Made by a program: the position numbers and the translations under genes
Notes under the pieces: model-generated
Told to the model about the DNA's origin: nothing
Seen by the model: the letters and a program-made list of their open reading frames with translations, nothing else
The model's database searches: none
Assembly (NCBI RefSeq): GCF_000299035.1
Contig: NZ_JH921518.1
Location: 186,001 to 250,000 of the forward strand
Length of the DNA: 64,000 bases
Direction of reading: 5' to 3'
From: Bacillus bingmayongensis
GTDB lineage: Bacteria; Bacillota; Bacilli; Bacillales; Bacillaceae_G
Part shown: piece after piece, positions 3,871-37,000 of the stretch
Layout of the letters: each line of letters begins with the position of its first letter
How positions within the stretch are numbered: the stretch's first letter is position 1

Positions 3871-4010
3871 TGTGATCCTCCCCATACTTTACTTTCTGAT
3901 AGAATCAAATACGCCATAGTAAACCATCCGTAATCATGACTTTTCGCTTTTAACAATGTGAATTATGTTATCAATAGAAAATTCTCGAAGTACTTCTACA
4001 TTCGCCAGGC

Positions 4011-7095: not shown

Positions 7096-8550
7096 TCATT
7101 TGGGTAAGTCATTTACTTCATATGCAACCCGTATTCCAGATTCAATTGCTCCTTGCATCCAACCATGAGTGAGTGTTGTATGCTCACCTGCAAAATGTAT
7201 TCTCCCTTCAGGTGTCGGCATATAAGGGAATAGTTCCAGTTCTTGCCCTGATTCAAAAGCAGTAAATGCTCCACAAGAATAAGGATTTTGCCCCCAGCTA
7301 AACGATGTACCTGTTACAAATTCAGCATAAACTTGATTTCCGTAAATTCTCGCTAAATTTCTTAATGCATAGCGAATACGTTCTTCATTAGACAGACTGT
7401 CCCACGTTAATGCTTCATCTGCCCATGTATAACTTGCTAACAGTACAGCTACTCCCGCTGTATGGATCCCTCGGCTCGGATAATATGTAAATCGAATTGG
7501 TAAGTCCGTTATCGATTTTCCGCCATATTGCCCCGCCTTTTCCCAAAATCGACTTTTAAATTCAATTGCAATTTTTGTTGAAGCCATATAGTTAAGCTCA
7601 CGAATCGCTCTTCGTTTGTAATAAGAAAAAGAATGATACGGTTCAATTTCTACAAAACGCAAAGCAGAAAATGGGATTGTTATAATCGCAAGATCTCCTA
7701 TCGCCATAAACTGTTCTAAAGTTTGCTCGTGATTTGTCTGGATCGCAACACTGTTATCGTATTGTATTATTTTAGTCATTTTGTAATTTAAAAATATATT
7801 TTCCTTTAACTGTGGTAAAAATGCTTTGGGTAATGCATCCATCCCACCTGTAATCTCATAAAACTTCGTGGTAGATGTAAAAAAAATCATTTCTCGCAAT
7901 ACTTCGATTAAAGATATTCCCATAAAAGCTTCCATATCAAGAAGTACACCAATCATATCAATTGCCCCATCTGAAAAATAACAACTTAAGAAAGTACCTA
8001 ATGAATATCTTCTATATTGTTTTTCTACAATAGTCCAATTTTTATCTGGGTCTTTCTTAATGAAATCAATAATCGGCTGTAGTGCTAAATTCATTAAGTC
8101 TTCCGCGGTTTTCCCTTTTTCCTCTAGTCTAACTGGATAATGTAAAACACTCGGATTTTGTTCAAATGTATGAAGGCGTGTTCGAATACCATTTGTATAA
8201 ATGATATCCATAGGAGTTCGATTTATAAATTCGTTCATTGGCAAACGAAATTTATTTATATATCCTAAAGTTAAAGTCTGTACATCAGGGATACGCATTG
8301 GTCCTGCATTAAAATATAGTCCCTTACTGAAAGGAGCCCGCAGCGTAAGTACTCTTCCTCCTATTCTGTTATTCGCTTCAAGAATTTTAACTTTATGACC
8401 AGCATCCTTTAAAAGCGAGGCACTAACTAATCCCGCTAATCCAGCCCCCACAATAATAATATTTTTAGGGGCTTGCGACTTAGAAAGTCCTTCTTTAATG
8501 ATTCGTAGCATTTGTTCCGTCGTTAATTTGTTATTCATATTATGAGGCAT
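7096..8550 (-). CDS. Flavin-containing amine oxidase (L-amino-acid oxidase/monoamine oxidase family)
   Basis: 484 residues. The FAD-binding Rossmann motif [14 protein letters not shown] is at 31-44, followed by the acidic end of the second strand ([11 protein letters not shown]). The C-terminal flavin motif is [21 protein letters not shown]. Together these define the FAD-dependent amino oxidase family (PF01593). No signal peptide; likely cytoplasmic. GAGGAG nine bases before the ATG supports the start. It stands alone. The reaction would be oxidative deamination of an amine or amino acid to an imine with H2O2; the substrate cannot be told. Confidence 0.85.
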
Positions 8551-22542: not shown

Positions 22543-22580
22543 AAAAATAAAAAGCACTTGATTAAAAATATCAAGTGCTT
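22543..22580 (-). terminator. Riboswitch expression-platform terminator
   Basis: AAGCACTTGAT (22552-22562) against ATCAAGTGCTT (22570-22580), perfect 11-bp stem, seven-base loop, then TTATTTTT on the minus strand. It starts at the last base of the aptamer, as expected for a transcription-terminating ZTP switch. Confidence 0.88.
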
Positions 22581-22650
22581 GCCTAGGCGCGCGGCTCATA
22601 ATCCATATGCTCCCTCATGGTAATCCATGTTGCGCCAGTTACATATGGGA
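22581..22650 (-). promoter_or_regulatory. ZTP (pfl-type) riboswitch aptamer
   Basis: Read on the minus strand: P1 CCATATG/CATATGG encloses the conserved AACTGGCG, a P2 hairpin CATGG/CCATG, and GGGAGC; then the P3 domain GAGCCGCGCGCC followed by a loop. These blocks and their order are the established ZTP/ZMP aptamer, which senses purine-pathway stalling under folate shortage. The last block reads CCTAGGC where the consensus is CCUGGGC, a change in a highly conserved loop. It controls a permease gene that is now a pseudogene. Confidence 0.85.
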
Positions 22651-22666
22651 ATTCAATTCTTCATTT

Positions 22667-25321: not shown

Positions 25322-26371
25322 TTATCCTTTGTAGATAAGATCTTGAGCTAATGATGTAAACATCTCTCCAACAAGCGAATCTTCGTCATATACGGACGAA
25401 CCTTTGTTTTCTTCAGGCTTTGCAAAAGGTATTTGTGCTATCACTTCTGTTTGCAGTTGTTCTGCTAACATTTCGCCGCCACCTTTCCCAAAGAGATAGT
25501 TCCTTGAACCCTCTTGTTCCTCATAATATGCCATATTCTCAACGATACCTAAAATATCGTGTTTTGTATGCTTTGCCATTACCCCTACTCTGGAAGCAAC
25601 AAACGAAGCTACATTATGAGGAGTAGTAACTATAATTTCCTTCGCGTGAGGGATCATCGCAGCCACATCAATCGCAACATCTCCTGTACCAGGAGGCAAA
25701 TCAAGAAGAAGATACTCTAGTTCTCCCCAGTGAGTGTTGGCAAAGAAATTTTGAATCCATTTATTTAGCATTGGCCCTCGCCACATAACTGGGTTATTAT
25801 CCTCTATAAAAAATCCCATTGACATAATTTTAACGCCGTGGCTAACGACCGGAATCGCTGTCTGATCTATCATTGTTGGCTTTTGATTAGCTTCCATCAT
25901 AGCAGGGATACTGAATCCATATATATCTGCATCTAAAATCCCAACCTTTTTCCCAATACGGGCTAAAGCAGTAGCAAGGTTAATCGTCACAGTTGATTTT
26001 CCGACTCCACCTTTTCCACTTGTCACAGCAATAAAACGTACACCTGAATCTGGTCGCAACATACTAGGCATGCCGGTTTCCGTTCTAGAATTTCTCTTTA
26101 AAGTTTCTGTTAATGCAGCTCGTTCTTCCGGTGTCATGGAGCCGAAGGTCAAAGAAACCTTAGAGGCTCCAATGTTCCGCAGAGAGTCTTCAATATCTTG
26201 TTTAATTTTCGCCTTTAATGGACAACCTTGAATAGTTAAAATAACTTCAAGGTAAATCTGTGTGCCATCAATTTGAATATTTCTTACCATGTTTAATTCC
26301 ACGATACTTTTGTGCAACTCTGGATCCTGAACATGGCTTAGAACTTTCATAATTTGTTCATGAGTAAGCAT
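25322..26371 (-). CDS. mrp: Mrp/ApbC-type P-loop ATPase, Fe-S cluster carrier
   Basis: 349 residues. An N-terminal MIP18/DUF59 domain (MLTHEQIMKVLSHVQDPEL) precedes the ATPase domain with deviant Walker A GKGGVGKSTVT near residue 118 and switch text DLPPGTGDVAID. Mrp/ApbC proteins bind and hand over 4Fe-4S clusters. AAAGGA nine bases upstream supports the ATG. Although it follows moaD, it has its own promoter and a structured leader with a terminator (26502-26700) resembling that of fdhA, so it may serve the 4Fe-4S-rich formate dehydrogenase. The housekeeping salA/mrp of Bacillus is normally elsewhere. Confidence 0.85.
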   Translation of the reverse strand: MLTHEQIMKVLSHVQDPELHKSIVELNMVRNIQIDGTQIYLEVILTIQGCPLKAKIKQDIEDSLRNIGASKVSLTFGSMTPEERAALTETLKRNSRTETGMPSMLRPDSGVRFIAVTSGKGGVGKSTVTINLATALARIGKKVGILDADIYGFSIPAMMEANQKPTMIDQTAIPVVSHGVKIMSMGFFIEDNNPVMWRGPMLNKWIQNFFANTHWGELEYLLLDLPPGTGDVAIDVAAMIPHAKEIIVTTPHNVASFVASRVGVMAKHTKHDILGIVENMAYYEEQEGSRNYLFGKGGGEMLAEQLQTEVIAQIPFAKPEENKGSSVYDEDSLVGEMFTSLAQDLIYKG

Positions 26372-26501: not shown

Positions 26502-26666
26502 CAAAAAAAACACCATGAGTACCCGAACCTACTTAAATAGGCTTGTGTACTCATGGTGGAATAGATTACTAGCAATACTTACTAATATACCAATCCAACC
26601 ATTTATAACATAAATAAAAAGTGATAAAATGATAACAATCCATTATTATCGTTCCATCTATTATAA
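26502..26666 (-). ncRNA. Structured 5' leader of mrp with intrinsic terminator (family shared with fdhA)
   Basis: On the minus strand the RNA begins around 26666 with GATGGAACG, contains hairpins GATAA/TTATC, ATTTAT/ATAAAT and TTAGTA/TGCTAG separated by the conserved GGATTGGTAT, and reaches TTCCACCATGA. That last block can pair with ATGGAA at the start (closing stem) or form the left arm of a terminator (CACCATGAGTAC 26511-26522 with 26547-26558) followed by eight Ts. Alternative pairing of this kind is the layout of an attenuator or riboswitch. The same blocks in the same order precede fdhA. Confidence 0.65.
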
Positions 26667-26671
26667 TCATA

Positions 26672-26700
26672 AATATAGCGTTAACTTTACTAACAAACAA
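26672..26700 (-). promoter_or_regulatory. Promoter of the mrp leader
   Basis: -35 TTGTTT (26695-26700), 17-bp spacer, -10 TATATT (26672-26677) preceded by AACGC, as in the fdhA promoter. It begins two bases after the moaD stop codon. Confidence 0.6.
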
Positions 26701-28878: not shown

Positions 28879-29741
28879 GGTTCTGGTGCAAAAACTTTAA
28901 ATCTCTTGCAAGTAATCTCCTAAACTTGGACATACTGATAGTATTACTCTAAAAAAGGTGTGTGCTCGGTATGGAAAAGGAAAATTTGTTTAAATGGAAG
29001 CATTATCAGCCTGATGTTATCTTATTAACGGTAAGATGGTACCTGCGGTACAACCTCAGTTTTCGTGATTTAGTCGAAATGATGGAGGAACGGGGCTTAT
29101 CCATTGCTCATACAACGATTATGCGTTGGGTTCACCAATATGGTCCTGAGCTAGATAAGAGAGTTCGTCGTCACCTTAAGAAAACGAATGATTCTTGGCG
29201 AGTAGACGAAACGTATATTAAAGTCAAAGGAAAGTGGATGTACTTATATCGAGCTGTTGATTCCGAAGGAAACACCATTGACTTTATCTTCAGTAAAACA
29301 AGAGATCATAAGGCTGCAAAGCGCTTTTTTAAGAAAGCTTTGCAGTCTTTTCATGTTTCTAAACCTCGTGTTGTGACCGTTGATAAAAATCCAGCTTATC
29401 CTATCGCTATAGAACATTTGAAGAAAGAACAACGGACGCTCGCTGACATCCGAATAAGACGAATAAAATATCTGAATAACATAATCGAGCAAGATCATCG
29501 CTTTATCAAGAAGCGAGTGCGTACCATGTTAGGATTGAAATCTTTTCAATCAGCTAAACGAGTGTTGGCTGGACTGGAAGCGATGAGAATGATTAAAAAA
29601 GGACAGACTTTGCAAGGGGAGAAGTCTGTCAAAAAACAAATCAAGTTAATCAATCAACTCTTCGGTCTCACCGCATAGTAGTAGGTTCCATTAGGAGTCT
29701 ACACTGCTATTTCTAATCTACATATTATTTGCACCAGAACC
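28879..29741 (+). mobile_element. IS6-family insertion sequence (863 bp) inside moeB
   Basis: Perfect 14-bp terminal inverted repeats GGTTCTGGTGCAAA at 28879-28892 and, inverted, at 29728-29741, close to IS6-family ends (GGTTCTGTTGCAAA). One transposase gene fills the element. The 8-bp flanks differ (GGTTTCGA on the left, CTTATTTC on the right), so there is no target duplication; together with the missing middle of moeB this indicates an adjacent deletion or recombination between two copies. Confidence 0.9.
28971..29678 (+). CDS. IS6-family DDE transposase
   Basis: 235 residues from the ATG at 28971. DDE residues lie in WRVDETYIKVKGKW, VTVDKNPAYP and NNIIEQDHRFIKKR, with the RTMLGLKSF segment after the Glu, as in IS240/IS26-type proteins. 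A zinc-finger-like N-terminal part is short, as in the family. No stop or frameshift: the enzyme looks active. The gene points opposite to the Moco genes around it. Confidence 0.93.
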   Translation: MEKENLFKWKHYQPDVILLTVRWYLRYNLSFRDLVEMMEERGLSIAHTTIMRWVHQYGPELDKRVRRHLKKTNDSWRVDETYIKVKGKWMYLYRAVDSEGNTIDFIFSKTRDHKAAKRFFKKALQSFHVSKPRVVTVDKNPAYPIAIEHLKKEQRTLADIRIRRIKYLNNIIEQDHRFIKKRVRTMLGLKSFQSAKRVLAGLEAMRMIKKGQTLQGEKSVKKQIKLINQLFGLTA

Positions 29742-29886: not shown

Positions 29887-30672
29887 TTAGAAATCTTTCT
29901 CTATATGACTTTGTTTCTGATAACAAGAGAAGTAAGCAAATCCAACAAATCCAGCTCCACCAATTACATTTCCGATAAAAACCGGAACAAAATTCTCGAC
30001 AAGATCCATCCATGAAAGGTAACCCGCAAAAATAACTGCTGAGATTACAAACATATTTGCTACGACTTGCTGAAATCCAATCACGACAAATGCCATAATA
30101 GGAATCCAAATCCCGATAATTTTCCCAACAAAATCGTTAGTTCCATAAGCTAACCAAATCGCAAGGCAAACGAGCCAGTTACAACCAATTGCTGAAATTA
30201 ATGTTTTCCCAAACGATTCATGTAATTTCTCTTGGGCTATTGCCACTGTTTTATTTAAATATGCACCCTCCGTCAACCCGCCAAGGTGACCGAAACAATA
30301 AGCTACGAAAAGTGTACCAACAAAGTTAGTTAAAGTTATCCAAATCCAATTATTTAACACACTTTTCAATGAGATTTTTCGCGCATACAGGGCCATGGAC
30401 ACTGACATCATGTTTCCCGTAATTAACTCTCCGCCTGCCAAGACAACAAGCATAAGCCCTATAGGAAAAACTGCTCCTCCCAAAAAATTCACTAGACTTC
30501 CCCAATGCTCCGGTAAATTACCTAAAACTCGAATATTAAGTAAAAACCCTAACGAGATGAATGCTCCTCCTAAAAAACCGAGGATAAGCATGGCGGATAA
30601 CGATTGCCTTACCTTTTGAACACCGGCTTCAATCACAAGCTCAGCGATTTTTTCCGGTTTATGAAATGCCAT
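29887..30672 (-). CDS. Formate/nitrite transporter (FNT family)
   Basis: About 261 residues from the ATG at 30672, which has GGAGG eight bases upstream. Six membrane segments of the FNT pentameric channel: GGAFISLGFLLNIRVLGNLP, LAGGELITGNMMSV, and the second-half GCNWLVCLAIWLAYGTNDFVGK, whose N-x-x-x motif lines the pore. Given its place between fdhA/fdhD/moaA and moeB/moeA, it is most likely a formate channel feeding the dehydrogenase, though nitrite cannot be excluded. A terminator hairpin lies in its leader. Confidence 0.9.
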   Translation of the reverse strand: MAFHKPEKIAELVIEAGVQKVRQSLSAMLILGFLGGAFISLGFLLNIRVLGNLPEHWGSLVNFLGGAVFPIGLMLVVLAGGELITGNMMSVSMALYARKISLKSVLNNWIWITLTNFVGTLFVAYCFGHLGGLTEGAYLNKTVAIAQEKLHESFGKTLISAIGCNWLVCLAIWLAYGTNDFVGKIIGIWIPIMAFVVIGFQQVVANMFVISAVIFAGYLSWMDLVENFVPVFIGNVIGGAGFVGFAYFSCYQKQSHIEKDF

Positions 30673-30695
30673 AACCAATTCCTCCATTTTTTTAA

Positions 30696-30780
30696 AATAA
30701 AAAAGCAGCTTCAATAGACCCTTAACATCGTAAGGATTTTTGAATGCTGCTTAATCTCTCTGCATTTCTCTTACAGAGAT
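30696..30780 (-). promoter_or_regulatory. Leader hairpins and terminator in front of the FNT gene
   Basis: On the minus strand, hairpin TCTCTG/CAGAGA (30757-30779) is followed by AAGCAGCATTCAA (30740-30752) that pairs with TTGAAGCTGCTT (30703-30714, one bulged A) and six Ts, with CCTTA/TAAGG nested inside. The terminator ends about 25 bases before the FNT start, so it must be conditionally passed. Around 100 more bases of leader lie upstream to about 30875. I recognise no known riboswitch consensus. Confidence 0.6.
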
Positions 30781-30923: not shown

Positions 30924-31940
30924 TCAACCACCAATATGCGACATTTCAATTTTTGGCAATGTTTTTTTATTTGTATTGCTTAGCCGTTCATCTGAATAGC
31001 GATCTGAACGATTATTCCAAATGTCACGAATAACATCGATAATCTCCTCATCGGTATACCCAGAACGAAGCAATTCTCTAAGATCATTTCCTTTAGAAGC
31101 AAACAAACAAGTATATAATTTTCCTTCTGCGGAAATACGAGCTCTTGTACATGATGAACAAAAAGAATCTGTTACAGATGAAATAATTCCTATTTCCTCA
31201 TCACTACCGATATAACGATAGCGAGTAGCAACTTCGCCAGGATAGTTTGCTTCAATTCGTTCCAGCGGCATAACTTTATTAATCATCTCTAATATCTCTT
31301 GTTTAGAGACTACCTCGTCTAATTCCCAGCCGTTAAAATTCCCGACATCCATATATTCAATAAACCGAAGAATATGCTTATTCTCTTTAAAGTATTGCGC
31401 CATCTGAACGATGTCTTGTTCATTTTTTCCTTTTTGGACAACCATGTTCATTTTAATTTTCATCCCGACTTCCGCTGCAGCCTGTATTCCTCCAAGAACC
31501 GTTTTTACTTTACTTCTATTACCATTTAAATAAGTAAAACGCTCTTCTTCCAAAGAATCCAAACTAACTGTCACACGTGATAAACCCGCCTTATATAAAT
31601 CAGGAGCAAACTTCTTAAGTAAAGATCCATTTGTAGTTAAACCAATATCCTCTACTCCATCAATTTTGTTAAGTCGCTCAATTAGTTCAGGAAGGTTTTT
31701 CCGAAGTAAAGGCTCTCCCCCAGTAATACGCACCTTTCTTACACCTAAAGAAACGAAAATACGTGTTACCCTTTCAATTTCATCAAAAGATAAAATTTTA
31801 TCATTAGACAAAAAAGAATAATCAGGACCAAATATTTCTTCCGGCATACAATATCGACAGCGAAAATTACAGCGATCGGTAACAGAAATACGTAAATCCC
31901 TTAAAGGACGGTGCAATTTGTCTAATGTGACAGATTTCAT
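30924..31940 (-). CDS. moaA: GTP 3',8-cyclase MoaA
   Basis: 338 residues. Radical-SAM cluster C24-x3-C28-x2-C31 in [11 protein letters not shown]-binding GGEPLL, the C-terminal 4Fe-4S site [18 protein letters not shown] and the terminal Gly-Gly of HIGG. It makes the first dedicated intermediate of the cofactor from GTP. GTGAGG eight bases upstream supports the ATG. moaC, which acts next, is not in the window. Confidence 0.95.
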
Positions 31941-32006: not shown

Positions 32007-32804
32007 TTACTTAATATTTACAACCCGCTCTGGATGAGTATATACATTTAAAGATTGATTACGAATAAAGCCTATTGTAGTAATCCCTAATTGTTCTGCT
32101 AGCTCCAGTGCTAACTCAGTTGGAGCAGATTTTGACAATATTATTTCGCAGCCAATTTTCGCAACTTTCAATAGAATTTCAGAAGATATACGGCCACTAA
32201 AAACAATAATTTTATCACTAATAGAAATGTTGTTTTTTAAACAATAGCCGTAAATTTTGTCTAAAGCATTATGTCTTCCTATATCCATTCGGCTTAAAAT
32301 GATTCCATTCACATCGCATAAGGCGGCATTATGAACCCCGCCTGTATGCTGAAAAGTAGCCGCAGATTGCTGCATATCATTCATTAATCGAAAACAATCC
32401 TGGGCAGAGATCTTTACGTGAACATCATCTATCTTCTTCGCAGTCAGTGCATCATTTACGAAAACAAATCCTTGTCTACTCATTCCACAACATGAAGTAA
32501 TATAACGCTTATTTTGGATGTCACGATAATAAGGATTGATCTTTGTCGTTGTTACGTGTACATATCCTTCTTTATCCTGTACCCATATTTCATCAATGTC
32601 TTCATACTTTCGGATAACACCTTCAGATGCTAAAAAGCCTATTACCATATCTTCAATATACTCTGGAGTACTAACCATTGTAACAAATTCCTGTCCGTTA
32701 ATTTTAACCGTAACTGGAAACTCTGTTACAATGCTGTCCTCTATATGCTTAAATTCCCCTTGTTCATACCGGAAAATTTCCCGTTCCATCTGTATCGATT
32801 TCAC
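32007..32804 (-). CDS. fdhD: Formate dehydrogenase accessory sulfurtransferase FdhD
   Basis: 265 residues starting with GTG 32804 (GGAAGG nine bases upstream). FdhD features: FLASEGVIRKYEDI, the cysteine motif TSCCGMSRQGF (the sulfur-carrying CxxC loop region), HTGGVHNAAL, and DIGRHNALDKIYG. It transfers sulfur from the cysteine desulfurase to the molybdenum cofactor of formate dehydrogenase. The gene lies between the DUF2294 gene and moaA in the fdhA run. Confidence 0.93.
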   Translation of the reverse strand: MKSIQMEREIFRYEQGEFKHIEDSIVTEFPVTVKINGQEFVTMVSTPEYIEDMVIGFLASEGVIRKYEDIDEIWVQDKEGYVHVTTTKINPYYRDIQNKRYITSCCGMSRQGFVFVNDALTAKKIDDVHVKISAQDCFRLMNDMQQSAATFQHTGGVHNAALCDVNGIILSRMDIGRHNALDKIYGYCLKNNISISDKIIVFSGRISSEILLKVAKIGCEIILSKSAPTELALELAEQLGITTIGFIRNQSLNVYTHPERVVNIK

Positions 32805-32820
32805 GATCAGTATCCTTCCC

Positions 32821-33165
32821 TCACGTTATATTTTTATCAAAGACAAACACTGAAACTGCAATATCTTCATCCACTTTCATATCCGAAAACAGATGAACTA
32901 ATTTGGCTCCAACAAGTTCCTCCAAATGCTCACGAGAATTGACAGCATAGACCTCCTGAATCATTTTCGTTCTAGCCATATGAACCATTTCCGCACCATC
33001 CAAAGTTCCCGAAATGAATTTCTCAGTAGGTGTCAAATTTCCATAAAGTGTGGCAATAGCCATATTCTCAGCAAATACAGTATGAATTCGTTCCGGTCCT
33101 TTTCCGAACAAATCTTTTCGAAGCTTTCGTATCATATCATTAAACTCATGTACCATTTTTGACAT
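32821..33165 (-). CDS. DUF2294 family protein
   Basis: About 114 residues; ATG 33165 has GGGGAGGA eight bases upstream. HEFNDMIRKLRKDLFGKGP and GAEMVHMARTKMIQEVY match the DUF2294 family (Na+-translocating/YbcI-like), small proteins of unknown role often found beside formate dehydrogenase genes. No membrane segment or cofactor motif. Sixteen bases separate it from fdhD, so they are co-translated. Confidence 0.75.
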   Translation of the reverse strand: MSKMVHEFNDMIRKLRKDLFGKGPERIHTVFAENMAIATLYGNLTPTEKFISGTLDGAEMVHMARTKMIQEVYAVNSREHLEELVGAKLVHLFSDMKVDEDIAVSVFVFDKNIT

Positions 33166-33344
33166 ACTCACATTCCTCCCCGATTCATCAATAATACTTT
33201 TCCAGTACTACTTCATCATAAATATTTTAACAAAATGACCTTTTCGTCTGAATTATTCACTCAAATAATTAAACAAAAAGGCTCATTTTTTAGAATTATT
33301 TCAAACATACATAAAACCTATGAAATAATATTATTGTTGCTTAC

Positions 33345-33827
33345 CTATTCGTCTTTTAACCCCTTACCCATACCTTTTAAGAAATGAAGACCGAATCCGA
33401 TAGTACGGTTAATGTCTGGATCCTTAAGTACTTTCATAAGGTCCAGTATTCCTACTTTTTTATTACTTTGCAGGTGCTTGCTTCCTTCATCCATACCTAT
33501 CAATACACTACTTACAAGTTTTTTAGTAAGTTCCGGATCAAGTTCTGTTAAAGCTCCTGCAGCGCCCATCATATTGTTAATCAAATTCGTGACTGGTTCA
33601 CGAGTGACTTGTCCTAGAATAATTTTTGCGATTTGCTCTTTCGCTTGAAGCATAGAACTTGCAGCTTCCAGCATCCCAATGTCATTCAGTTCACCTACAA
33701 TATTAAACATTTGATTTAAAGCTTCTTCATTATTTGCTAGAAGTACTTTTAAATCTTCTAACTTTTGTTGTCGTTGTTCTTCCTCAGTTGGCTCATCCTT
33801 TCGGATAGCTTTAATAGGTGCTGCCAT
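33345..33827 (-). CDS. DUF1641 protein encoded with formate dehydrogenase (YrhD-like)
   Basis: 160 residues, helical, with VGELNDIGMLEAASSMLQAKEQI and the C-terminal IGFGLHFLKGMGKGL diagnostic of DUF1641. In B. subtilis the homologue yrhD lies directly next to the formate dehydrogenase gene yrhE, and the arrangement is the same here (15-bp gap). It is suspected to be a subunit or electron-transfer partner of the soluble dehydrogenase; its reaction is not known. Confidence 0.83.
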   Translation of the reverse strand: MAAPIKAIRKDEPTEEEQRQQKLEDLKVLLANNEEALNQMFNIVGELNDIGMLEAASSMLQAKEQIAKIILGQVTREPVTNLINNMMGAAGALTELDPELTKKLVSSVLIGMDEGSKHLQSNKKVGILDLMKVLKDPDINRTIGFGLHFLKGMGKGLKDE

Positions 33828-33842: not shown

Positions 33843-36782
33843 CTAGTTATCCGTTAAGTGCACGTATCCTGGACGAGCCCACTTGCGATTTACCTCAATC
33901 CCATTTTGAGGATGACGCTTTTTGTTACGTGGATTCGTTTTTGGCATCGGATTTTCCCCTTCTACTTGTAACACTTCCATACGAACTTTCGTTTGTTTAT
34001 ATGCAGGTGTATTGGTACGTTGATCGACCGCAGGACCCGTTAAGAAATTAATTGCCGATTCGTTGTCTGTCGAGTTCATCGGTAAATAAAGCTCATTTTC
34101 TTTTACACGATCCGTTACAAGTGCACGTAATTTAAGTGCTCCAAAAGGAGAAACCAATCGCACTAACGAACCAGTTTTAACTCCACGTTCTTGTGCAAGT
34201 TTTGGAGAAACTTCAACGAAAACACCAGGTACTTTAGCTTGAATACCATTTGATTTATTTGTCATGTTACCTTCATGGAAATGTTCCAGCATACGACCAT
34301 TATTAATATGAAGATCGTATTCCTCTGGGAATTCAGCTGGATGTACCCAGTCAGCTATAGCGAAACGAGCTTTTTTGTCTGGGAAGTTAAATCCATCTAG
34401 GAAAAGGAGTGGCGTATTCGTTCCTTCAAAGCTTCCCCAATGGAAACTATTCCAGCCTTCAAGCACTTCATAGTTTGCTTGTGCAAAAAGTGGCGATAAA
34501 CTTGCCATTTCAGCGAAGATTTCACTTGGATGACTATAGTTCCAATTTGCGCCTAATTTATTTGCAATCGCTTGTACGATCCACCAGTCTGGTTTCGCAT
34601 CTTCCAGCGTAGGAAGTACTTGATATAATCTTTGTACACGACGCTCTGTATTTGTAAAAGTCCCTTCTTTTTCAAGAGATGGAGTTGCAGGTAACACTAC
34701 ATCGGCATATTGAGCAGTTTTAGAAAGGAAAACATCCTGAACGACAAAGAAATCAAGGCTTGATAGAACTTCATGTACATGATTTGCGTTAGAGTCTACA
34801 AGGGCCATATCCTCTCCGACAAGATACATGGCTTTCATTTTCCCTTCTTCAATTGCGTGAAGCATTTGAATGTTATTCAGACCTGGCTTGTTATCAATTT
34901 TCACCCCGTAAGCTTTTTCAAATTTTTCACGGGCTACATCATCAGTAATGTGCTGATATCCTGGAAGCCATCCTGGGAGAGTTCCCATATCACAAGCACC
35001 TTGTACGTTGTTATGGCCACGAAGTGGATATGCACCAGCACCTGGGCGACGATAATTTCCTGTTGCAAGAAGTAAGTTTGAAATCGCAGCGGAAGTATCT
35101 GATCCACCAGTATTTTGAGTTACACCCATACCCCAAAGAATACAAGTACCATCTGCATCTCGAATCATTTCTGCCATTTGAATGAGCACTTCTTTTGAAA
35201 TGCCTGTAATCTTTTCTGCATATTCAAGTGTATATTCTGCAAGACTATCTTTGAAATCTTCAAAGAAGTTTACATTCTCGTCGATGAACTGTTGATCATG
35301 CCAGCCTTGATCAATCATATATTTGGTAACAGCCATTAACCATACTTGGTCTGTTCCTTGCTTTGGACTGATAAAGACATCTGAACGCTCTGCCATTTCG
35401 GTTTTTCGCAGATCCGCAACAATTAGTTTTTGACCGTGAAGTTTATGCGCACGTTTCACGCGAGTAGCTAAAACCGGGTGGCCTTCTGTTGGATTTGAGC
35501 CAACGATAATAACAAGACCTGCTTGTGCAATATCTTTAATCGTTCCTGCATCTCCGCCCATACCAATTGTACGGAACAATCCATCTGTTGCTGGCGATTG
35601 ACAATAACGAGAGCAGTTATCAATGTTGTTCGTTTCGAATACTTGTCGAGCTAATTTTTGAATAACATAGTTGTCTTCATTCGTAATTTTAGAAGAAGAA
35701 ATAAAACCTACAGAACCGTTACCGTACTCTTGTTTAATAGTGCCTAATTTATTGGCAACTAAATCCAGTGCTTCTTCCCAAGTTGATTCAACAAATGTTC
35801 CATTTTTACGAATTAAAGGCTTAGTAAGACGTTCTTCAGAATTTACGAAATCCCAACCAAATTTTCCTTTAACGCAAGTAGAAATTGCGTTAACCGGTGC
35901 ATCAGAAGTTGGTTGGACTTTCAAAATTTTACGACCCTTCGTCCACACTTCAAATGAGCACCCTACACCACAGAACGTACATACTGTTTTCGTTTTCTTC
36001 GTACGAGTTTCACGCATCGCAGCTTCTACTTCTGAAACTGCGAAAATACCGCTGTATCCAGGTTCAACTTCTTTTATAAGATCAACCATAGGCTCAAGAA
36101 TGTCCGGCTTCAGCCCAGTCATAAATCCAGCTTCTCCAAGCATCGATTTCTCCATCAAAGCATTACAAGGACAAATGGTTACACATTGACCACAGCTTAC
36201 ACATGAAGAATCGTTAATAGCCGCTCCGTCATCCCAAATAACACGAGGACGCTCTGCCTCCCAATCAATAGATAAAGTTTCATTTACTTGCAAGTTTTGA
36301 CAAACTTCTACACATTGACCACACGCAATACATTGATTAGGATCATAGCGATAAAATGGATGAGACATGTCAACTTCACTTACATCTACTTTTGGCGTGT
36401 AAGGATATTTTTGATGCTCAATTTCCATTAATTCTGCCGTATTATGCAATTTGCAGTTCCCATTATTGTTGTCACAGACCGTACAATAAAGTAAATGGTT
36501 TTCCAATAAGCGGTCCATCGCCTCCGTTTGTGCTGCCTTGGCACTAATAGAGGACAACTCAATATTCATACCGTTCTTTGCTACTGCCGAGCAGGATCGC
36601 ACAAGTTTTCCATCAACTTCTACAATACAAGTATCACACGTTTGAATAGGATCCACTTCAGGCACGTAACAGATTTGTGGATGTTCTATCCCGTTTTGAT
36701 TAATGATGCCCAAGATAGTTGAACCCGGCTCAGCTGTATACCTTTTTCCGTCGATTGTAATATGAACCATGCTGTCGTTCAT
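33843..36782 (-). CDS. Molybdopterin formate dehydrogenase, catalytic subunit (FdhA/YrhE type)
   Basis: 979 residues from ATG 36782 (GGGAGG seven bases upstream; the frame extends 34 codons into the leader but without a site). Domains: 2Fe-2S ferredoxin (TCDTCIVEVDGK...SCSA), His/Cys 4Fe-4S segment (CTVCDNNNGNCKLH), two 4Fe-4S motifs CIACGQCVEVCQ and CVSCGQCVTICP, the molybdopterin domain's own cluster CTFCGVGCSFEV, and active-site Cys in SRYCQSPATDG (Cys, not selenocysteine). C-terminal MGD-binding domain LHINNGRMLEHFHEG. NAD-linked or ferredoxin-linked oxidation of formate to CO2. Confidence 0.92.
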   Translation of the reverse strand: MNDSMVHITIDGKRYTAEPGSTILGIINQNGIEHPQICYVPEVDPIQTCDTCIVEVDGKLVRSCSAVAKNGMNIELSSISAKAAQTEAMDRLLENHLLYCTVCDNNNGNCKLHNTAELMEIEHQKYPYTPKVDVSEVDMSHPFYRYDPNQCIACGQCVEVCQNLQVNETLSIDWEAERPRVIWDDGAAINDSSCVSCGQCVTICPCNALMEKSMLGEAGFMTGLKPDILEPMVDLIKEVEPGYSGIFAVSEVEAAMRETRTKKTKTVCTFCGVGCSFEVWTKGRKILKVQPTSDAPVNAISTCVKGKFGWDFVNSEERLTKPLIRKNGTFVESTWEEALDLVANKLGTIKQEYGNGSVGFISSSKITNEDNYVIQKLARQVFETNNIDNCSRYCQSPATDGLFRTIGMGGDAGTIKDIAQAGLVIIVGSNPTEGHPVLATRVKRAHKLHGQKLIVADLRKTEMAERSDVFISPKQGTDQVWLMAVTKYMIDQGWHDQQFIDENVNFFEDFKDSLAEYTLEYAEKITGISKEVLIQMAEMIRDADGTCILWGMGVTQNTGGSDTSAAISNLLLATGNYRRPGAGAYPLRGHNNVQGACDMGTLPGWLPGYQHITDDVAREKFEKAYGVKIDNKPGLNNIQMLHAIEEGKMKAMYLVGEDMALVDSNANHVHEVLSSLDFFVVQDVFLSKTAQYADVVLPATPSLEKEGTFTNTERRVQRLYQVLPTLEDAKPDWWIVQAIANKLGANWNYSHPSEIFAEMASLSPLFAQANYEVLEGWNSFHWGSFEGTNTPLLFLDGFNFPDKKARFAIADWVHPAEFPEEYDLHINNGRMLEHFHEGNMTNKSNGIQAKVPGVFVEVSPKLAQERGVKTGSLVRLVSPFGALKLRALVTDRVKENELYLPMNSTDNESAINFLTGPAVDQRTNTPAYKQTKVRMEVLQVEGENPMPKTNPRNKKRHPQNGIEVNRKWARPGYVHLTDN

Positions 36783-36805: not shown

Positions 36806-36966
36806 ATAAAAAAACTCCACCACGAAAATATACGTACCGAATTAATAGGTACGATATCATCATGGTGGAGTAGTTCATTAGCACATCTTGCTAAAATACC
36901 AATCCATTTATTCATAAATAAAATGATAGATTCATAACAGGTCATATCACGATTCCATCTTTAACA
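36806..36966 (-). ncRNA. Structured 5' leader of fdhA with intrinsic terminator (family shared with mrp)
   Basis: Minus strand, starting about 36966: GATGGAATCG, hairpins TGATA/TATCA, ATTTAT/ATAAAT and TTAGCA/TGCTAA around the conserved GGATTGGTAT, then CTCCACCATGA, which is both the partner of GATGGA and the left arm of a 24-bp imperfect terminator (36848-36871 with 36814-36838) with an inner CGTACC/GGTACG hairpin and seven Ts. The terminator lies 24 bp before the fdhA start. Order and loop sequences agree with the mrp leader, whereas the terminator interiors differ. Confidence 0.68.
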
Positions 36967-36971
36967 CTATA

Positions 36972-37000
36972 ATTATAGCGTTTAATCAATAAATACACAA
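36972..37000 (-). promoter_or_regulatory. Promoter of the fdhA leader
   Basis: -35 TTGTGT (36995-37000), 17-bp spacer, -10 TATAAT (36972-36977) preceded by AACGC, like the mrp promoter. The -35 is weak, so an activator may be involved. Confidence 0.6.

Follow-up and report, generated by a model that had tools for sequence, protein, structure and literature searches.

A conserved leader RNA with an intrinsic terminator precedes formate dehydrogenase genes in Bacillus-like genera and is linked to the small protein MpsC

Introduction

Within the 64,000-nucleotide stretch of Bacillus bingmayongensis DNA analysed here (the window), two leader regions lie on the minus strand, one before the formate dehydrogenase gene fdhF (about 37000-36805) and one before an mrp gene (about 26700-26503). 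What kind of regulatory element do they form, and what acts on it? The initial annotation had proposed an aptamer with a switching terminator. Our analysis supported the new RNA and the terminator switch and weakened the aptamer. The leader is a real, conserved, structured cis-regulatory RNA with a terminator, absent from Rfam 15, and we favour two-hairpin antitermination with the small protein MpsC over a metabolite riboswitch. Antitermination at two-hairpin leaders is known from the ANTAR proteins EutV, NasR and AmiR, whose leaders carry hexanucleotide loops with a conserved A and G.

Results

Two related leaders in one window

The genes behind the two leaders are the following.

33843..36782, minus strand: fdhF/forC, formate dehydrogenase subunit alpha, first gene after its leader (TIGR01591 above cut-off)
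33345..33827, minus strand: DUF1641 protein (PF07849 above cut-off)
32821..33171, minus strand: mpsC (DUF2294), the proposed RNA-binding partner (PF10057, 105 bits; co-occurrence with the RNA)
32007..32804, minus strand: fdhD (TIGR00129 above cut-off)
30924..31940, minus strand: moaA (TIGR02666 above cut-off)
29887..30714, minus strand: focA-like formate/nitrite transporter (best NCBIfam match fnt, 224.8 bits; cut-off 232.3)
25322..26371, minus strand: mrp/apbC-like Fe-S carrier gene (PF10609 and PF01883 above cut-off)

The mpsC gene sits in the cluster behind fdhF, 3.7 kb from the fdhF leader. The DUF1641 protein is ForE-like by name, according to PMC10433868. An IS6-family transposase lies within the Mo-cofactor cluster (28962-29678, plus strand), and a ZMP/ZTP riboswitch above its gathering score is found at 22574-22652 on the minus strand, about 4 kb from the mrp leader.

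The leaders themselves consist of the elements below, where R1 is the covariance model described in the next section.

36972..37000, minus strand: fdhF leader, promoter-like TTGTGT (37000-36995), 17 nt, TATAAT (36977-36972), by eye
36925..36959, minus strand: fdhF leader, P1 hairpin (fold; 12 of 15 pairs changed on both sides among 34 sequences)
36867..36905, minus strand: fdhF leader, P2-P3 element, the proposed antiterminator (covariation)
36905-36898 with 36874-36867, minus strand: P2 of the fdhF leader; 36894-36889 with 36883-36878: its P3
36808..36871, minus strand: fdhF leader, intrinsic terminator, stem 36871-36814, U-run 36814-36808 (folds; right arm covaries with P2)
26672..26700, minus strand: mrp leader, promoter-like TTGTTT (26700-26695), 17 nt, TATATT (26677-26672), by eye
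26623..26658, minus strand: mrp leader, P1 hairpin (fold; within the R1 match)
26558..26596, minus strand: mrp leader, P2-P3 element (fold, R1 match and pair counts in model hits)
26503..26558, minus strand: mrp leader, terminator, stem 26558-26511, U-run 26510-26503 (folds)

Reading and comparing the two sequences confirmed that the blocks picked out in the initial annotation are shared and stand in identical order before fdhF and mrp. Both leaders folded far better than their dinucleotide shuffles (z of -7.46 for fdhF and -6.50 for mrp, with 0 of 200 shuffles equal in either case). Several hairpins were thus borne out, but most of what had been taken for conserved unpaired text is actually paired: GATGGA is the 5' arm of P1, GGATTGGT the 5' arm of P2, and TTAGCA and TGCTAA form P3. 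The CTACTCC block is both the 3' strand of P2 and the base of the terminator, and in the fdhF leader CUCC is common to the two. A -35/-10 pair is visible by eye in each leader and TATAAT recurs in relatives, although a generic promoter scan called neither promoter. Likewise, folding gave both leaders a strong hairpin plus U-run, but a simple terminator scan called neither. With up to three mismatches allowed, the leader core matched the window nine times (the fdhF and mrp leaders with none, seven places with three) against 9.2 expected; elsewhere in the window it is no more frequent than by chance.

The RNA recurs across Bacillus-like genera

A BLAST search of plasmids found related leaders upstream of fdhF in Priestia megaterium and Bacillus licheniformis; in B. 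badius the leader lies next to mpsC-fdhD. A strict pattern of 22 fixed bases, most P2-P3 letters among them, matched 60 loci among 84,980 species (one genome each), all titled as Bacillus-like genera (Bacillus, Priestia, Geobacillus, Sporosarcina, Paenibacillus, Gottfriedia and others). Because this pattern fixed most of the P2-P3 letters, the invariance of P2-P3 in these first 60 loci was imposed. The strict pattern had no matches in viral contigs, and a further search of viral collections likewise found nothing.

R1 was built from 34 sequences, including the mrp leader, which it matches at 26550-26661 with 85.1 bits. With E up to 0.1, it recovered the RNA in all 13 genomes from which chosen loci came. 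With E up to 0.001, the RNA was found in 47 of 299 genomes from the order of Priestia abyssalis (G001), in 25 of 299 from its class, and in 8 of 296 from the order of a Paenibacillus genome (G003); positive genomes carried one to three matches each. At least one of these matches (L128) looks false, and it was excluded from the pair, overlap, pairing, conserved-column and regulon counts given below.

No Rfam 15 family reached its gathering score at either leader or at ten relative loci, in line with the view that the element belongs to no known family; below that score there were weak matches only, far under the family thresholds. We rejected a dispersed bcr-type repeat, since there are one to three copies per genome and 116 of the 120 distinct copies found by leader sequence precede a gene of the searched reference list. 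The covariance-model search suggested at the outset recovered an RNA that occurs across Bacillus-like genera, has covarying stems, lies outside Rfam and does not behave like a bcr repeat. No paper describing this leader RNA family was found in the literature searched, which covered few subscription journals.

Three covarying stems carry most of the conservation

As anticipated in the initial annotation, the stems covary, and this holds for P1, P2 and P3. P1 has 15 pairs, 12 of them with changes on both sides in the 34 sequences, and over all 28 pairs 94.7% of pair cells in these sequences were standard. On each of five measures, the observed covariation was reached by none of the 500 shuffles or slid controls. 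RNAalifold returned nearly the same fold, plus one further covarying P3 pair. Freer pair counts came from 76 distinct model hits, in an alignment (A4) that, being fitted to the model, favours the model's structure. The inner P2 pair was GC in 57, AU in 14 and GU in 5; the next P2 pair varied, P3 showed UA, AU and CG, and one G-U pair was invariant. The P3 loop of these leaders (type I hereafter) had 5 nt in 31 of the 34 sequences and 6 nt in 3, and the P1 and P3 loops differ in length.

At 90% identity or more, the 76 RNAs had 28 conserved columns. Twenty-four are paired. Of the four that are not, three belong to the terminator arm and one is a loop G. This distribution bears on a metabolite or ion riboswitch, whose aptamer, made up of P1 and P2-P3, would recognise formate, a Mo/W species, Moco or a one-carbon compound; the bound ligand would stabilise P2-P3 and block the terminator, and MpsC would only be a member of the regulon. 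The strong sequence conservation of P2-P3 would suit such an aptamer, but a single conserved unpaired base outside the terminator arm makes it somewhat less likely, although a pocket may also be built from paired bases.

In five copies (L012, L013, L116, L119 and L120), P1 and the promoter were absent and P2-P3 and the terminator intact; the replacing sequence was partly alike between loci and is perhaps a repeat insertion. These degenerate copies and the truncated L032 were also excluded from the analysis of P1/terminator pairing.

The terminator competes with P2

The left arm of the terminator had been thought to pair alternatively with the start of the leader, and this was not upheld. In 76 sequences, each P1 paired with its own terminator no better than with permuted ones (mean -3.62 against -3.79 kcal/mol), and 495 of 500 permutations were at least as strong. 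Instead, the terminator arm covaried with the 3' strand of P2 (CUAYUCC), and a U-run was found in 75 of the 76. A C in this strand went with an arm ending GGAG in 13 of 14 cases, a U with GG, GGA or GGAA in 42 of 47, and an A with GGA or GG in 14 of 14. This covariation indicates that P2 and the terminator are alternatives, except in the B. subtilis group. At two loci (L187 and L191), the outer pairs of P2 and the terminator arm were recoded together.

Folding agreed. In 92 of 116 distinct sequences, the terminator stem reached 1-5 nt into the 3' strand of P2. The 24 with zero overlap comprised seven that were misjudged because the U-run finder stopped too early and 17 from the B. subtilis group; in the latter, terminator and P2 abut without overlap, so that this group falls outside simple competition. 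The logic of an ON switch through stabilisation of a conserved stem, as the initial annotation had it, fits, but the stem is P2 and not a P1/terminator pairing.

Formate-related genes dominate the regulon

Only genes on our reference list were recognisable as downstream genes. For the 120 distinct RNAs found by leader sequence, the first recognised gene was fdhF in 101, Gly_transporter (PF03458) in 7, mpsC in 4, mrp in 3 and focA in 1, with none recognised in 4. Adding five RNAs fetched through MpsC (125 in total) brought fdhF to 104, a YdeP-type gene to 1 and none recognised to 5. These counts tie the leader to formate and Mo genes, unlike a bcr repeat, which would be spread without regard to gene type. 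With formate oxidation and transport at its centre, the regulon would also be natural for a riboswitch.

Gly_transporter-like genes lay under or beside the leaders at L112, L114, L129, L154, L174, L176, L039 and L221 (the PF03458 scan was made for L112 only), and two such loci were in genomes without FdhF at E 1e-100. One genome (G217) had three variants of the RNA (L131, L117 and L114), before fdhF, mrp and Gly_transporter, respectively, and each variant had a separate MpsC paralogue less than 4 kb away.

MpsC accompanies the RNA

Close MpsC, with at least 56% identity and set apart by a gap reaching down to 46%, was encoded by 49 of the 299 genomes from the order of G001. It was present in 46 of 47 RNA genomes and in 3 of 252 without an R1 hit, both counts coming from the same genome draw. 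In those three, weaker candidates for the RNA adjoined fdhF or a YdeP-type gene (G144, E 2.8e-4; G270, E 0.0051; and G178, E 0.098, assessed visually). We also chose a second set of 80 genomes, in which MpsC of at least 52% identity occurred in 44 of 45 RNA genomes and in none of the 35 others. Within 1.2 kb, MpsC was found for 80 of 99 RNAs that had enough flank and had not been fetched through MpsC, and for 83 of 102 with the MpsC-fetched ones included.

FdhF of at least 69% identity followed the RNA in the same 80 genomes about as closely (42 of 45 RNA genomes, 0 of 35 others), which would also suit a riboswitch. Linkage alone could therefore make MpsC a mere regulon member, and we slightly lowered its odds on this account. 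Genomes that separate the two linkages are few. Two (G306 and G513) had the RNA, MpsC and Gly_transporter and no FdhF at E 1e-100, which counts against the riboswitch, and in G427 the FdhF match was only 32%. Conversely, G010 and G248 had the RNA and fdhF without close MpsC, which speaks for a riboswitch or for an RNA-binding protein other than MpsC. G248 has distant double-domain MpsC proteins and G010 only a sub-cut-off MpsC match. The region G248:C12:152940-154615 holds a pair of open frames, of 237 and 273 aa, in both of which the MpsC domain is matched twice.

ANTAR was the one alternative protein tested. Only 15 of 45 RNA genomes and 0 of 14 controls (B. subtilis included) had an ANTAR domain above cut-off, and the loops do not follow the expected hexaloop with conserved A and G, the type I P3 loop mostly having 5 nt and the type II loop described below being CGANC.

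No RNA-binding fold is known for MpsC. A PDB search with MpsC alone found no relative, and one with an MpsC profile gave six matches at E 0.22-0.88, none credible. In the literature searched, most subscription journals lying outside it, a query by the names DUF2294 or PF10057 returned an unrelated paper only, and no function for the family was found beyond deletion and sRNA-target data. Deletion of mpsC in Staphylococcus aureus caused no growth defect (PMC6689103).

Distant MpsC genes sit with a second RNA type

Distant MpsC genes (37-46%) often shared an operon with genes for an MFS transporter and a YdeP-type oxidoreductase (TIGR01701 over cut-off); at L206, MpsC was confirmed in such an operon. 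The MFS gene was named L-lactate MFS transporter (NF049980), and oxalate/formate models stayed below cut-off, which makes formate less sure as a common signal.

Behind these mpsC genes we found a type II RNA, GGYU-GGCACUUGGCAGCGANCCUGCU-AAGACU-ARCC plus a terminator. The pattern occurred in 52 of 299 genomes, once in each, and the reversed pattern in 2. In all 52, it followed a distant mpsC at 29-202 nt, with both on one strand. It was missing from 13 of 65 genomes with distant MpsC, some of which hold variants. Type II RNA had no Rfam match; against plasmids it gave one match, not credible.

Of 19 loci with the MFS gene, the leaders of 18 were examined (L216 was left out), and 17 of these had the loop AG(C/U)G..CCUG twice, at a spacing of 59-75 nt, compared with 1 of 1800 shuffles of these leaders; the loop expression was written after some of the leaders had been seen. 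The type II loop is CGANC and the type I P3 loop NGNNN, and the two types have in common the G-U and G-C pairs of P2 that adjoin GGYA. RNA types I and II sit with different MpsC subgroups. This partition tells against a riboswitch, as does the tandem repetition of one and the same hairpin loop in the type II leaders.

Discussion

We favour a protein-bound two-hairpin antiterminator with MpsC because conservation is concentrated in pairs, hairpins are repeated and the RNA is linked to MpsC. Three observations count against an aptamer: 24 of the 28 conserved columns are paired, the type II loop occurs twice in sister leaders, and the RNA goes with MpsC. Paired conservation, the doubled hairpin loop and the MpsC linkage fit a protein-bound pair of hairpins better than a metabolite pocket. 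For an ANTAR-like two-hairpin antitermination system with MpsC as candidate RNA-binding protein, we estimate a probability of about 0.47.

The leader would work by transcription attenuation, with RNA polymerase making P1 and then P2-P3. If P2-P3 were left unheld, downstream sequence would invade the 3' strand of P2, the terminator would form, and transcription would stop before fdhF (or mrp, mpsC, focA or Gly_transporter). A regulator holding P1 and P2-P3 would block the base of the terminator and let transcription continue. The small protein MpsC (PF10057) is the most likely regulator; it might bind as a dimer to both hairpins, in the manner of ANTAR antitermination but with a different RNA motif and protein. 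It probably responds to formate or to a state linked to formate.

The alternatives fare less well. A metabolite or ion riboswitch is the nearest competitor, although the paired conservation, tandem loops and MpsC subgroups make it less likely. A different RNA-binding protein, for which the two-site hairpin architecture would also be apt, appears unlikely; ANTAR, the one such family tested, had a poor record. A constitutively terminated leader or a small RNA without switching, for example one bound by Hfq, would agree with the 139-nt Hfq-coIP peak at the B. subtilis yrhE leader (PMC3574147) but is very improbable, as the covarying P2-P3 competes with the terminator and the RNA is placed again and again directly upstream of related genes.

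Among known systems, ANTAR leaders are similar in arrangement. They too have two hairpins in the 5' leader, the second exclusive with an intrinsic terminator, a regulator often encoded nearby, and catabolic or respiratory genes downstream; a second hairpin overlapping the terminator is what 92 of 116 type I sequences have. Loops and stems differ (NGNNN in type I and CGANC in type II, not a hexaloop), as does the candidate protein. In ZTP and fluoride strand-displacement riboswitches, the terminator likewise invades the 3' strand of a conserved element and stabilisation gives read-through, but the present RNA has hardly any conserved unpaired base and no Rfam match. The Moco riboswitch shares the Mo-enzyme gene context; neither it nor other Rfam cis-regulatory families reached a gathering score at the leaders or their ten relatives.

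If MpsC acts as proposed, the PF10057/DUF2294 family would gain a function, a non-ANTAR class would be added to two-hairpin antitermination, and the control of formate oxidation and transport in bacilli would be explained. Should MpsC turn out not to be the partner, the leader would still be a well-defined family of orphan regulatory RNAs whose regulon is coherent.

The RNA is present in close relatives of B. subtilis such as B. spizizenii (L048). YrhF, which we take to be the MpsC protein of B. subtilis, fits the gene order. The antitermination model can be tested at once in this species, since its genome carries PF10057 and the gene order in the literature puts yrhF beside the yrhE leader. 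The peak mentioned above has the same position, between yrhF and yrhE, and is listed as 'New sRNA or yrhE leader region'; the accessible part of PMC3574147 presents it as an Hfq-enriched peak, without structure, family or mechanism. In RNAseq after RoxS induction, yrhF mRNA fell to 0.42 and yrhE/yrhD to 0.69 (PMC10433868), and yrhF is a RoxS target (PMC8216469). The joint decrease is as expected if YrhF promotes read-through into yrhED, although this support is indirect.

More broadly, but tentatively, MpsC (DUF2294) proteins may make up a new antitermination family that binds RNA, responds to formate (or to a related signal, either a small acid or a one-carbon compound) and controls a whole superfamily of leaders with two hairpins, with paralogous MpsC-RNA pairs of types I and II having evolved side by side. 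Type I pairs would then serve fdhF, mrp, focA and Gly_transporter, and type II pairs operons of the MFS transporter/mpsC/YdeP type. A possible third RNA type was seen at L197 (about 7290-7340, minus strand) and L221 (about 3890-3930, minus strand), before fdhF or Gly_transporter and beside MpsC of the VGNGPKEI/VGNGPREI group.
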